Shown: positions 492-46,172 of the stretch, piece after piece | How positions within the stretch are numbered: position 1 is the first letter of the stretch | How the letters are laid out: each line of letters opens with the position of its first letter | DNA from: an uncultured Dehalococcoidia bacterium | GTDB lineage: Bacteria; Chloroflexota; Dehalococcoidia; Lucifugimonadales; UBA1123 | Direction: 5' to 3' | Assembly: GCA_951812505.1 (NCBI GenBank) | Contig: CATOSI010000003.1 | Coordinates: 744,001-808,000 of the forward strand | DNA length: 64,000 bases | The notes under the pieces: generated by a model | Database searches by the model: none | What the model was told of the DNA's origin: nothing | The model's input: only the letters and a program-made list of their open reading frames with translations | Made by a program: the position numbers and the translations under genes

Positions 492-511
492 GCCACCACC
501 GAGTGATAGCT

Positions 512-830
512 CAGGGCCTTTGCAAAGTCGTCCGCGCTTCCATTTCCACTTCACATCCATTCCGCCAATACGCTACAATATACTCATGAAGAACAAAGTT
601 TCTGGTGCTGGATACATAAACACAAATTTATGTTTTCGAAAATCGAAGCCTCGGAGATTTCAAAACACGCTAACGCAGGGCGACGCAGGGCAAACTCAGG
701 GCAAAATCGCCCCCTGTACATGCCTGTGACTTGCCTGTTCCCGCCCTGTACAATTATAAATCAGAATATATGAACCTCCGGATCCGCCAACTCGCCGGAA
801 CACATCTGACTCAACTTTGAAAAAGCCCTG
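512..830 (+). mobile_element. 319-bp MITE-like element, copy 1, with 9-bp target duplication
   Basis: The element starts CAGGGCCTTTGCAAAGTCG and ends with the reverse complement of CAGGGCTTTTTCAAAGTTG, so 16 of 19 terminal positions match. It is flanked by perfect direct repeats GTGATAGCT at 503-511 and 831-839. A second copy of exactly the same length lies inverted at 45811-46129 with a different 9-bp duplication; manual comparison gives about 30 mismatches over 319 positions. No transposase is encoded. The interior holds several CAGGGC repeats (about 676-746) and an imperfect hairpin around 610-640. This element fills most of the 415-base gap between the methyltransferase and the DUF3500 gene. 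Confidence 0.9.
731..760 (+). promoter_or_regulatory. possible outward promoter inside the 319-bp element
   Basis: TTGCCT (731-736) is followed after 18 bases by TATAAA (755-760), reading toward the DUF3500 gene whose ATG is at 907. The TATAAA is kept in the second copy of the element, but the -35-like hexamer is not. Support is pattern only. Confidence 0.25.
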
Positions 831-906
831 GTGATAGCTGCGTCTCAATTGCCGACCCATGTGATTCGTGCTATCCTCAGCCCATGAACACGAAGGAGGA
901 TTTTCG

Positions 907-1893
907 ATGACCACGGCACACAAGCATGCTTCCGCCGCCGGCATGACGAAGGCGGCCAAGAGGTTCGTGGAGAGCCTCAGCGGCGACCAGCGCGACAAGA
1001 CGATCTACGAGTATATGGACGGCGAGCGCATCTTCTGGTACTACCCTCCGGTCAACAGGCACGGCCTTCCGCTCAGGGACATGGACGACGATCAGCGGCA
1101 ACTCGCCTACTCGCTCATGGAGACCGGACTCACCGACAGGTCGTTCGACCAGGCCAAGTTGATCATCGAGCATGAGTCCGTACTAGGCCCGTTGGAAAAG
1201 GAAGCCGGTATAACTAGCTTCGTTCGTGACCCGGACCTCTACTACTGGACTGTGTTCGGCGATCCGGGCAGCGACAAGGAGCCGTGGGGCTGGCGAGTCG
1301 AGGGACATCACGTCTCCCTGAATTTCAGCCTGTGGGGTGACAAGTTCATCTCGATGACACCGTTCTTCTTTGGGTCCAATCCCGCCGAGGTCCGCAAGGG
1401 GCCGAAAAAGGGACTGCGAATTCTCGACCAGCGCGAAGACCTGGGCTACGAACTCATGAACAGCCTGGATAAGGGGCAGACAAGCAAGGCGACCATCTAC
1501 AGCGAAGCGCCGTATGACATTCTTACGTACAACGCATCCCGCGTGTCGCTTCCCCCTGAAGAGGGCCTGCCCGCGTCGAAGATGAATGACACCCAGAAGG
1601 ACATCCTCCGAAACCTGGTCAACGTCTATGTGAACCAGGTACGAACGGACATGGCACAGGAGAAGCTCCAGCGACTTGAGGACGAGGGCTTCGACGGCCT
1701 GCACTGGGCTTGGGGCGGCCCCTTGGAGCAAGGCAAGGAGCATTACTACCGGATCCACGGCGGCAACTTCGTTGTCGAGTTCGACAATCGGCAGAATGGC
1801 GCCAACCACATCCACTCGGTCTGGCGCGACGTCGAGAACGACTTCGCAAACGACGTACTGCGTGAGCACTTGCTGCTGTATCACGTTCTATAG
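907..1893 (+). CDS. DUF3500 family protein
   Basis: This 328-residue protein matches my knowledge of the DUF3500 family: a central block with EGHHVSLNFSL and FFGSNPAEVRKGP, and a C-terminal block with YYRIHGGNFVVEFDN followed by NGANHIHSVWRD. The biochemical role of the family is not established. The start is chosen at ATG 907 because AAGGAGGA at 892-899 is well spaced from it; an in-frame ATG at 868 lies upstream of that site and would add 13 residues of poor character. There is no clear signal peptide. The gene stands alone between the mobile element and a strong terminator shared with the convergent gene. The many His, Trp and Asp residues in the C-terminal block suggest a metal or substrate site, which is inference. 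Confidence 0.85.
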   Translation: MTTAHKHASAAGMTKAAKRFVESLSGDQRDKTIYEYMDGERIFWYYPPVNRHGLPLRDMDDDQRQLAYSLMETGLTDRSFDQAKLIIEHESVLGPLEKEAGITSFVRDPDLYYWTVFGDPGSDKEPWGWRVEGHHVSLNFSLWGDKFISMTPFFFGSNPAEVRKGPKKGLRILDQREDLGYELMNSLDKGQTSKATIYSEAPYDILTYNASRVSLPPEEGLPASKMNDTQKDILRNLVNVYVNQVRTDMAQEKLQRLEDEGFDGLHWAWGGPLEQGKEHYYRIHGGNFVVEFDNRQNGANHIHSVWRDVENDFANDVLREHLLLYHVL

Positions 1894-44016: not shown

Positions 44017-44844
44017 ATGTTTCTGGACTGCCATGTTCATCTTGAGCCATATACCGACGCGGAGGTCGGAGAGATTCTGAATCGAGCCGAGCAGGTGGGG
44101 GTGCGCGCTGTCATATCAGCGGGTACGACTATCGAGTCTTCGGAACGCTCTCTGCAACTGTCCGAAAAGTACGACGGTTTCTTCTCCGGGGTTGGAATTC
44201 ACCCTATGGACATTCGTGAGCCGTTCACCGACGCTACGTTTGAAGTGCTTGAGAGCATGGCGCTTTCCACGGACAAGGTGCTTGTAATAAGCGAAGTTGG
44301 CCTGGACTTCATGGAGGGCGCGCCCGACAGGGCCATCCAGTATCCGGCGTTCAGGGAGCAGATCAGGCTGGCGAGGCAGCTGAGTCTTCCGATAGTGTTC
44401 CACAGCAGGGAGTCGCACGACGAGGCATTTCGTGTACTGCGAGAAGAGCGCGCCTATGAAGTCGGCGGAGTGATGCACTACTTCCAAGCCGACTACGAAA
44501 CGGCGAGGCAGATCATTGACCTCGGATTCTACGTCTCGCTCGCCCGGCCGCTGCTGCGACTGCCCCATCTTCAACAGGCGGCGGCGAAGATTCCGCTGGA
44601 GCATATCGTTCTGGAGACTGACGCGGCTCCGCAGCCGTTCAAGGCGAAGCGGGAGAACTGGACAGAACCCAGGCACGTGGCTGTAGTTGCCCAGACACTG
44701 GCCGAACTCAAGGGCATAGATGTCGAGGAGGTCGAGGAGGTCACCACCCGAAATATGCGGCGTGTTCTTGGCGACGGCTGGGATATTGTCGAGAAGTACG
44801 TGGGAGCACAGGCTAATCCGCGGTCCTCAGCCTGTCCAGTATAA
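44017..44844 (+). CDS. TatD family metal-dependent hydrolase
   Basis: The 275-residue TIM-barrel protein has DCHVHLEPY at the start (HxH metal site), GIHPMDI, ISEVGLDFMEG (Glu ligand), FREQIRLARQLSLPIVFHSRESHDEAFRVL (His ligand), VGGVMHYFQADYETARQIIDLGFYVSLA and VLETDAAPQPF with the final Asp. TatD proteins are 3' exonucleases or deoxyribonucleases, though other family members act on other substrates. ATG 44017 has no strong ribosome site. Its last 32 bp overlap the end of the convergent nucleoside hydrolase gene. Confidence 0.9.
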   Translation: MFLDCHVHLEPYTDAEVGEILNRAEQVGVRAVISAGTTIESSERSLQLSEKYDGFFSGVGIHPMDIREPFTDATFEVLESMALSTDKVLVISEVGLDFMEGAPDRAIQYPAFREQIRLARQLSLPIVFHSRESHDEAFRVLREERAYEVGGVMHYFQADYETARQIIDLGFYVSLARPLLRLPHLQQAAAKIPLEHIVLETDAAPQPFKAKRENWTEPRHVAVVAQTLAELKGIDVEEVEEVTTRNMRRVLGDGWDIVEKYVGAQANPRSSACPV

Positions 44845-45712
44845 GTTGACGCGCGCTCTCAACCTCCACGTCAACCGCTACCTTCACCTCTGTACCCTTG
44901 TAGTCTGCGCGCGTTCTGCCCTTCTGTTCGCCTTCCTCGACCACGGTTATTCCGGCGTGCCTATACGTCAGCAGGTCGGGAGCGATGGCTGCGGCTACGG
45001 TGAGCGGGTCGCATAGGACGTATCTGTCGTATTCGGGATGGATTTCAAACCAGCCTTCGATGATTCGCGCGGCGAGACGCTCTCCGGTAGAAGTTCCCGA
45101 TCTCCAGTCCGTTTCCGCGAGCCCGAACGCGACCCTTTCGCACACGTCGAGACCGACGAGGGTGATCGGAATGCCTGAATCGAACACGACGTTGGCGGCG
45201 CGCGGGTCGTCGTAGATGTTGAATTCGGCGTATTGAGTCACATTCCCACCGACTTCGACTGCCCCTCCCATGACAAATATCTCTTTGATTCTGTCTTTGA
45301 CTTCAGGCCGTCGCTGGATGGCGACCGCCACGTTGGTGAGGGGCCCGAGCGCGATGATCGTAATGGCTTCGTCGAAAGTTGCGGCGGCGGATGAGATATA
45401 TCGGTCGGCGGGAACGGCGCTGAGCATCTCAACCGATTCCGGCAGCTCGATTGTCATACCGCCTGGGCCGTGGTAATGCTCCGCGAGTGCGAACTCTCCT
45501 GTCAGCGGCGTATCGGCGCCAATGTGAACCCTTATATCAAAGTTTCGCAAGCTGGTCAGCAGCCCCAGCGCGTTTCTAGTCGCATCTTGGAGCGACGTAT
45601 TTCCCGTAACGGTGGTCAATCCCGCGATGTCGAGCTCAGGCGAATTGAGGGCGGCGATCAACGCGATTGCGTCGTCTGTGCCCGGGTCCGTGTCTATTAT
45701 GACTCTGGTCAT
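44813..45712 (-). CDS. inosine-uridine preferring nucleoside hydrolase family protein
   Basis: The 299-residue protein starts TRVIIDTDPGTDDAIALIAALNSPELDIAGLTTVTGNTSL, where the DTDPGxDDA cluster binds calcium. IIALGPLTNVAVAIQRRPEVKDRIKEIFVMGGAVEVGGNVTQYAEFNIYDDPRAANVV follows, with the conserved Asn and Asp ligands near the ribose. The enzyme hydrolyses the N-glycosidic bond of ribonucleosides in salvage. It overlaps the tail of the tatD-type gene by 32 bp and the second copy of the 319-bp element begins 98 bp upstream of its ATG. Confidence 0.92.
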   Translation of the reverse strand: MTRVIIDTDPGTDDAIALIAALNSPELDIAGLTTVTGNTSLQDATRNALGLLTSLRNFDIRVHIGADTPLTGEFALAEHYHGPGGMTIELPESVEMLSAVPADRYISSAAATFDEAITIIALGPLTNVAVAIQRRPEVKDRIKEIFVMGGAVEVGGNVTQYAEFNIYDDPRAANVVFDSGIPITLVGLDVCERVAFGLAETDWRSGTSTGERLAARIIEGWFEIHPEYDRYVLCDPLTVAAAIAPDLLTYRHAGITVVEEGEQKGRTRADYKGTEVKVAVDVEVESARQLILDRLRTAD

Positions 45713-45810
45713 ATCTGAGTGGTCCTTAGCGTCCCTGCGGGTCAGCGCTTTTCAAATTCGGCGATTCTGTGAAGGTCGAGAGAGTCGCGCAACGCTTCGC
45801 ACTGACTTCG

Positions 45811-46129
45811 CAGGGCTTTTTCAAAGTTGAGTCAGATGTAATCCGGCGAGTTGTCGGATCCGGAGGTTCATATATCTTGGTTTATAATTGTACAGGGCGG
45901 GAACAGGGGAGTCACAGGCATGTACAGGGGGCGATTTTGCCCTGAGTCTGCCCTGCGTCGCCCTGCGTTAGCGTGTTTTGAAATCTCCGAGGCTTCGATT
46001 TCTGGATACATAAATACAAATTTATGTATCCAGTGCCAGAAACTTTGTTCTTGACGGGTGTATTGTAGCGCATTTGCGGGATAGATGTGTAGTGGAAATA
46101 GAAGCGCGGACGACTTTGCAAAGGCCCTG
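45811..46129 (-). mobile_element. 319-bp MITE-like element, copy 2, with 9-bp target duplication
   Basis: The same element as at 512-830 in inverted orientation, also exactly 319 bp, flanked by CTGACTTCG at 45802-45810 and 46130-46138. The ends are CAGGGCTTTTTCAAAGTTG (left, plus strand) and the complement of CAGGGCCTTTGCAAAGTCG. Inside is a perfect 14-bp hairpin, CTGGATACATAAAT (46002-46015) and its complement (46020-46033) with an ACAA loop; in copy 1 this arm has decayed. It fills the 460-base gap between the nucleoside hydrolase and the epimerase gene and reads with both. Confidence 0.9.
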
Positions 46130-46172
46130 CTGACTTCGAAGAGGCACCGGTCGCTGGGAGATGCAGTTGATT

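Follow-up and report, generated by a model that had tools for sequence, protein, structure and literature searches.

Introduction

MITEs that bear promoters are already known, Correia, MITEAba12 and BrickBuilt among others (review: PMC10969869). Correia repeat enclosed elements of Neisseria are high-copy MITEs located just upstream of genes, with sigma-70-type promoters and an IHF site (PMC10969869). BrickBuilt of Porphyromonas gingivalis is a MITE with a trapped repeat array, a 23-nt tandem minisatellite of 19 copies, and with promoter activity in both directions; the idea of a mobile promoter was raised by its authors (PMC4596501).

The 319-bp element described below resembles Correia as a high-copy MITE upstream of genes with a promoter and a putative protein-binding site, the analogy being one of function only; it differs in its host and in a phased array of 7-8 CWGG words, which is also present without transposon ends. 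The ends of Correia differ from those of the present MITE. With BrickBuilt it shares the combination of a repeat array and a promoter in a MITE; here, however, the words are 10-12 bp apart and in converging orientations, co-orientation with genes is strong, and the modules number about 90. Near-identical promoter sequences are reportedly found before unrelated genes within one genome (putative mobile promoters, or promoter propagation); the present case differs from these in that the carrier, an ISAs1-type MITE with target-site duplications (TSDs), is known for part of the copies, and that the promoter travels together with an operator-like array. By analogy only, the element may be called a mobile promoter, a recognisable promoter (TTCACA-18-TACAAT in copy 1) being found inside the mobile unit. 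From the known MITE promoters it differs in the phased CWGG operator-like array, the larger population devoid of terminal inverted repeats (TIRs), the strong co-orientation and the turnover between species.

Results

The window, i.e. the whole stretch of 64,000 nt that was analysed, belongs to a genome of 3.8 Mb in 6 contigs (G000) and contains two copies of the element (Table 1), which is why the original prediction reported two copies only. Its reading of both as exactly 319 bp was repeated directly on the sequence; BLAST gave 90.6% identity over 319 positions, 30 differences and 0 gaps (about 30 mismatches had been counted); the TIRs (CAGGGCCTTTGCAAAGTCG vs CAGGGCTTTTTCAAAGTTG) match at 16 of 19 positions; and the flanking 9-bp repeats are perfect and different (GTGATAGCT at copy 1, CTGACTTCG at copy 2). 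No transposase is present in either copy (319 bp, no conserved reading frame). The view of a MITE-like, transposed and non-autonomous element was upheld by sister copies with TSDs, and that of moderate age by further copies with TSDs of 8/9 or 7/9, as expected for ageing insertions. The prediction was sound as to the element and had overlooked the promoter/array module of its interior, present in about 90 places. A tool scan of copy 1 gave two promoter candidates, TTCACA-18-TACAAT and GTGACT-17-TACAAT.

Table 1. Features of the two 319-bp copies and their downstream genes (positions in the window).
Feature	Position	Strand	Evidence
9-bp TSD left, copy 1, GTGATAGCT	503..511	.	sequence
319-bp ISAs1-type MITE, copy 1	512..830	+	sequence, BLAST
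Left TIR of copy 1, CAGGGCCTTTGCAAAGTCG	512..530	+	sequence, end-pattern scan
Promoter P1 of copy 1, TTCACA - 18 bp - TACAAT	550..579	+	promoter scan, motif statistics
Forward CWGG words of copy 1, CAGGGC at 676, 686, 697 (spacing 10, 11)	676..702	+	
Reverse words of copy 1, CCTG at 713, 723, 734, 745 (spacing 10, 11, 11)	713..748	-	
Possible second promoter P2 of copy 1, -10 TATAAA or TACAAT	in 755..773 (TATAAA) or 749-754 (TACAAT)	+	
TATAAA-N5-ATATATGA of copy 1, invariant module end	755..773	+	
Right TIR of copy 1, CAGGGCTTTTTCAAAGTTG	812..830	-	sequence, end-pattern scan
9-bp TSD right, copy 1, GTGATAGCT	831..839	.	sequence
Downstream gene of copy 1, DUF3500 protein, co-oriented	907..1893	+	
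Downstream gene of copy 2, nucleoside hydrolase, co-oriented	44813..45712	-	
9-bp TSD of copy 2, CTGACTTCG	45802..45810	.	sequence
319-bp ISAs1-type MITE, copy 2	45811..46129	-	sequence, BLAST
TATAAA-N5-ATATATGA of copy 2	45868..45886	-	
CWGG array of copy 2	45893..45965	-	
Promoter P1 of copy 2, TACACA - 18 bp - TACAAT	46062..46091	-	
9-bp TSD of copy 2, other side, CTGACTTCG	46130..46138	.	sequence

The genome search proposed with the original prediction was carried out with the 319-bp element and yielded 29 BLAST matches in G000; complete or nearly complete 319-bp sister copies number about a dozen, several of them flanked by 9-bp duplications that agree at 7, 8 or 9 positions (pairs include GGTATGCGA/GGCATGCGA, GAATCAGGT/GAATCAAGT and ATTGTCGGC/ATTGTCGGT). 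The 19-mer end pattern was matched 76 times in this genome vs 2 times for a reversed control pattern and is thus far above chance. The same ends also bound elements of ca. 329-350 bp with diverged interior, in G000 and in its sister species, and MITEs of ca. 111-146 bp in G000, mostly 121-125 bp (the ca. 122-bp family; L302-L320, e.g. C1:937685-937807 and C2:292868-292990).

The interior of the ca. 122-bp MITEs is mostly a REP-like palindrome (GTCATTCCCGCGAAGGCGGGAATCCAG); the promoter/array module is absent. Their flanking 9-mers match at at least 7/9 in 14 of 18 element reports (one nested element being reported twice among the 18), while 0 of 306 mismatched pairings reach at least 7/9; orientation relative to genes is without bias. 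One copy is nested within a 319-bp-type element (C2:203422-203862). In REPIN/RAYT systems REP hairpins are mobilised by a RAYT transposase, whereas these MITEs combine a REP-like palindrome with ISAs1-type ends and TSDs. Since they transpose without the array, transposition does not depend on it and the array is cargo.

Full-length ISs: No full-length IS with these ends was found in G000; other genomes of the same order contain them. In G194 (another family of the order) a 1197-bp IS has perfect CAGGGCCTTTTCAAAGTC ends, ISAs1 transposase reading frames inside and a TSD of 8/9 (CCATTCCAC/CCATTCCAA); a second IS of 1241 bp in the same genome has more diverged ends, ISAs1 transposase frames and an exact TSD of 9/9 (CGTGAGCGC). 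In G189 (likewise another family of the order) a 1198-bp IS with these ends overlaps ISAs1-transposase matches; no TSD was found. In G185 (L350) a 1336-bp IS with the same ends holds an intact 409-aa transposase, 219 bits with NF033564 (ISAs1 family; cut-off 70) and matching PF13808 and PF01609 as well; again no TSD was found. The full-length IS with 9-bp duplications that had been proposed for search exists in these genomes, the duplication being present at some copies only.

The ends, which the original prediction had assigned to no family, are of ISAs1 type by these full-length ISs. The 319-bp element derives from an IS of the ISAs1 family and is a non-autonomous MITE: the same ends surround ISAs1 transposases, the TSDs are of 9 bp, and a transposase is absent. 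It has in common with the family the TIR CAGGGC(C/T)T(T/G)T(T/G)CAAAGTC and TSDs of 8-9/9 bp, as in the transposase-bearing full-length ISs of the order, and differs in that it is a MITE without transposase, the interior of these MITEs being the promoter/array module or, in the ca. 122-bp family, the REP-like palindrome. The ISAs1 transposases of G000 are truncated or stop-interrupted remnants only, without these TIRs; with no active one there, the 319-bp MITE may be immobile in this genome today. The same TIRs are very numerous in G196 (58 forward, 65 reverse), G190 and G187 (same order, another family), so that ISAs1-type ends have multiplied in genomes without the module.

A pair of ends ca. 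1.2 kb apart in G000 (C1:435290-436524) was rejected as the parent IS: it is a module into which an unrelated IS, not sharing these ends, has inserted. This unrelated IS (L066:996-1880; C1 about 435,500-436,380) has ends of GAGGGTGTCTGAGAAGTG type and an open reading frame resembling a transposase, and sits inside the CWGG array; a near-identical stretch adjoins the module at L162.

Promoter/array module: The module occupies positions ca. 39-262 of the element and recurs without TIRs upstream of other genes; about 40% of modules carry TIRs and about 60% do not. It consists, in this order, of P1, a leader, GCTAA, forward CWGG words, reverse words and TATAAA-N5-ATATATGA. P1 is of sigma-70 type, consensus CTACACA-N~18-TGCGCTATAATAC; its -10 motif is found in 110 of 119 modules (92%) vs 2.5% of shuffles. 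The forward C(A/T)GG words are usually three, and in 200 of 211 instances neighbours are spaced by 10 or 11 bp; the reverse words are four or five per module, mostly 10-12 bp apart. The words read CAGGGC in the 319-bp family of G000, like the TIR tips, and CAGGTG in the sister species (G002, Dehalococcoidia bacterium SB0664_bin_33), although the TIRs there stay CAGGGC.

A search with a profile built on the end of the array (A1/R1) gave 90 modules in G000 and 81 in G002. It found none in the congeneric genomes G001 and G003 or elsewhere among 250 genomes of the order, and among 400 genomes of the phylum no module beyond one weak partial match (E 3e-4); pattern matches in an acidobacterial contig and in a Vibrio contig proved not to be modules. 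In a tree of 90 modules every CAGGGC-type module (the type occurs in G000 only) belongs to a single group (support 98), and TIR-bearing modules are mostly confined to two shallow groups; the TIR-less modules are more diverged than the TIR-bearing ones.

Placement relative to genes: Genes were called with a home-made, simple codon-usage caller and contexts were read from fetched stretches. The next downstream gene lies on the strand of the module in 150 of 161 cases. Tandem settings comprise 63 co-oriented and 8 opposite modules, 2 modules are convergent, and divergent settings are uninformative on orientation; for TIR-bearing modules alone the numbers are 37 divergent, 18 co-oriented, 0 opposite and 0 convergent. 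The downstream genes are mutually unrelated (nusA, recA, lexA, dinB, apt, rplI, aroC, tig and sucC among them), and some begin 11-40 bp past the module end, e.g. dinB and a pcm-like gene. We infer that the orientation bias comes from selection rather than from insertion preference; with the ratio of 18:0, a small sample, a preference for upstream regions alone is an insufficient explanation. At copy 1 and at recA a native promoter intervenes before the gene, and any contribution of the module there is putative.

A link to LexA and the SOS response, suggested by modules at recA, lexA and dinB, was rejected: at recA a separate palindrome stands between the module and the start codon, and the majority of genes with modules lie outside the SOS response. 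This palindrome (CGAATGTATTTACATTCG in the G002 form, one mismatch in G000) lies just upstream of recA in both species (L148 and L178) and is possibly an SOS box of the lineage. In G000 and G002 alike, one module (L163 and L089) is directly preceded by a conserved, tRNA-gene-like stretch (GGTGGGCCCGGCAGGGATCGAACC...).

Comparison between species: The original prediction would have been contradicted by the same sequence at these loci in all related genomes; the orthologous loci of both copies in G001 and G003 are devoid of the element. The comparison of empty sites gave this absence and no exact site with a single 9-mer, because the gene upstream of copy 1 differs in the relatives and the spacer of copy 2 is too diverged. 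Between copy 1 and the start codon of the DUF3500 gene lies that gene's native promoter, TGCTATCCT; gene and promoter are conserved in G001-G003 without the element; at the copy 2 locus G003 and G001 have short spacers. The nucleoside hydrolase orthologue of G002 has a TIR-less CAGGTG-type module upstream.

Thirty orthologous genes have a module in both G000 and G002. At L118, L144, L149, L156 and L164 identity between the species is 92-100% for the -10, 63-97% for the array and near 40% for far-upstream DNA, these values being indicative since upstream alignments with indels are rough; by such resemblance the module appears clearly inherited at part of the 30 genes, e.g. these five. At others, among them L002, L004, L013, L129, L132 and L136, the modules differ between the species at a gene identity of 77-96%, and part of the 30 genes have module sequences that are clearly unrelated; this resembles turnover, or acquisition more than once by one and the same gene. 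At four genes with a 319-bp element in G000, another module stands before the G002 orthologue (L013/L180, L002/L095, L004/L262 and L003/L278); these coincidences seem to exceed expectation from independent insertion.

Discussion

Taken as a whole, the element is probably an ISAs1-type MITE that spreads a captured host promoter/operator module, as judged from sequence comparison. The simplest account would be that ISAs1 ends took up a module of the host and then spread it, which would make the element a mobile promoter with cargo of a new type; capture and then amplification is made the most likely course by the tree and by the absence of TIR traces in TIR-less modules. The module would have pre-existed at host genes as a larger, older TIR-less population; ISAs1 ends would have captured this cis-regulatory promoter/operator unit, and an ISAs1 transposase supplied in trans would have moved it to new sites, with amplification as the 319-bp CAGGGC family in G000 and the ca. 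329-350-bp CAGGTG family in both species. Copies upstream of a gene and pointing inward would have been kept, giving the gene a second promoter farther upstream, which is probably controlled by a host protein that binds the phased array.

A wider and more tentative proposal, possible yet well short of probable, is a transposon-propagated regulon of about 90 unrelated genes under one host protein or two paralogues (for CAGGTG-type and CAGGGC-type words), the array having been captured and re-delivered by ISAs1-type ends and orthologues swapping arrays. Genes carrying modules, and hence included in it, are nusA, recA, lexA, dinB, rplI, sucC, aroC and apt. If this were true, the phased CWGG array would be a new kind of operator.

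The main rival for the capture step is the loss of TIRs in all other modules: the TIR-less modules would be old MITE insertions with decayed ends, and the module would have been born in the transposon, not in the host. The core and the orientation rule are indeed common to both classes, and TIR-bearing and TIR-less CAGGGC modules stand on one branch. Residual TIR similarity, however, is nil (mean best TIR mismatches 8.16 vs 8.26 shuffled on the left, 7.79 vs 7.67 shuffled on the right), and TIR-less modules lie nearer to genes (median distance 80 bp vs 138 bp for TIR-bearing ones, p 6e-6); decay of the ends is thus considered unlikely.

It is rather improbable that the element is an ordinary, neutral ISAs1 MITE with an incidental interior, its upstream placement reflecting tolerance of intergenic insertions. 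MITEs are commonly intergenic, and the same-ended ca. 122-bp MITEs, with their REP-like palindrome and lack of orientation preference, are ordinary in this sense. A neutral insertion is difficult to reconcile with the absence of opposite and convergent TIR-bearing modules, the conservation of P1 in 92% of modules, the fact that two species have kept modules at orthologous genes (some of these modules with conserved -10 and array and diverged far-upstream DNA), and the share of modules, about 60%, that are entirely without TIRs.

A structured RNA leader starting from P1 (attenuator, protein-binding leader or riboswitch) in place of a DNA operator array is about equally improbable. P1 lies ahead of the array and is directed through it towards the gene, the distance from module end to gene start is short in some cases (dinB and pcm-like), and arrays fold better than shuffles (mean z -2.5), a value which the inverted repeats of the array alone would yield. 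On the other side, Rfam, searched with 10 loci, matched no module at E values up to 1, RNAalifold of 20 sequences yielded four conserved pairs only, the variable middle base of the words is without covariation between the arms (F3=T with R1=T in 28 cases), and the strict phasing of 10-12 bp suits DNA helical repeats. A DNA operator is therefore the favoured reading of the phased array, owing to the spacing near one DNA turn and the lack of arm covariation.

That the transposase binds the CWGG array as a subterminal region required for transposition, as the CAGGGC words shared with the TIR tips in G000 might suggest, is hardly credible in view of the ca. 122-bp MITEs, which move with the same ends and TSDs and without an array, of the different words and unchanged TIRs in G002, and of the position of the array, which is central rather than subterminal.

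Conclusion

Earlier proposals of mobile promoters in bacteria relied mostly on near-identical upstream sequences and named no carrier. In the present case the carrier family, the TSDs, the cargo, an older, unmobilised population of that cargo, same-ended MITEs that lack it and serve as a control, and two congeners likewise lacking it may be compared with one another, which makes transposon-driven regulatory rewiring in bacteria directly testable. The comparisons suggest that, in a little-studied, uncultured branch of Dehalococcoidia, transposons have carried a regulatory switch through the genome, to positions upstream of some 90 genes and directed into them.
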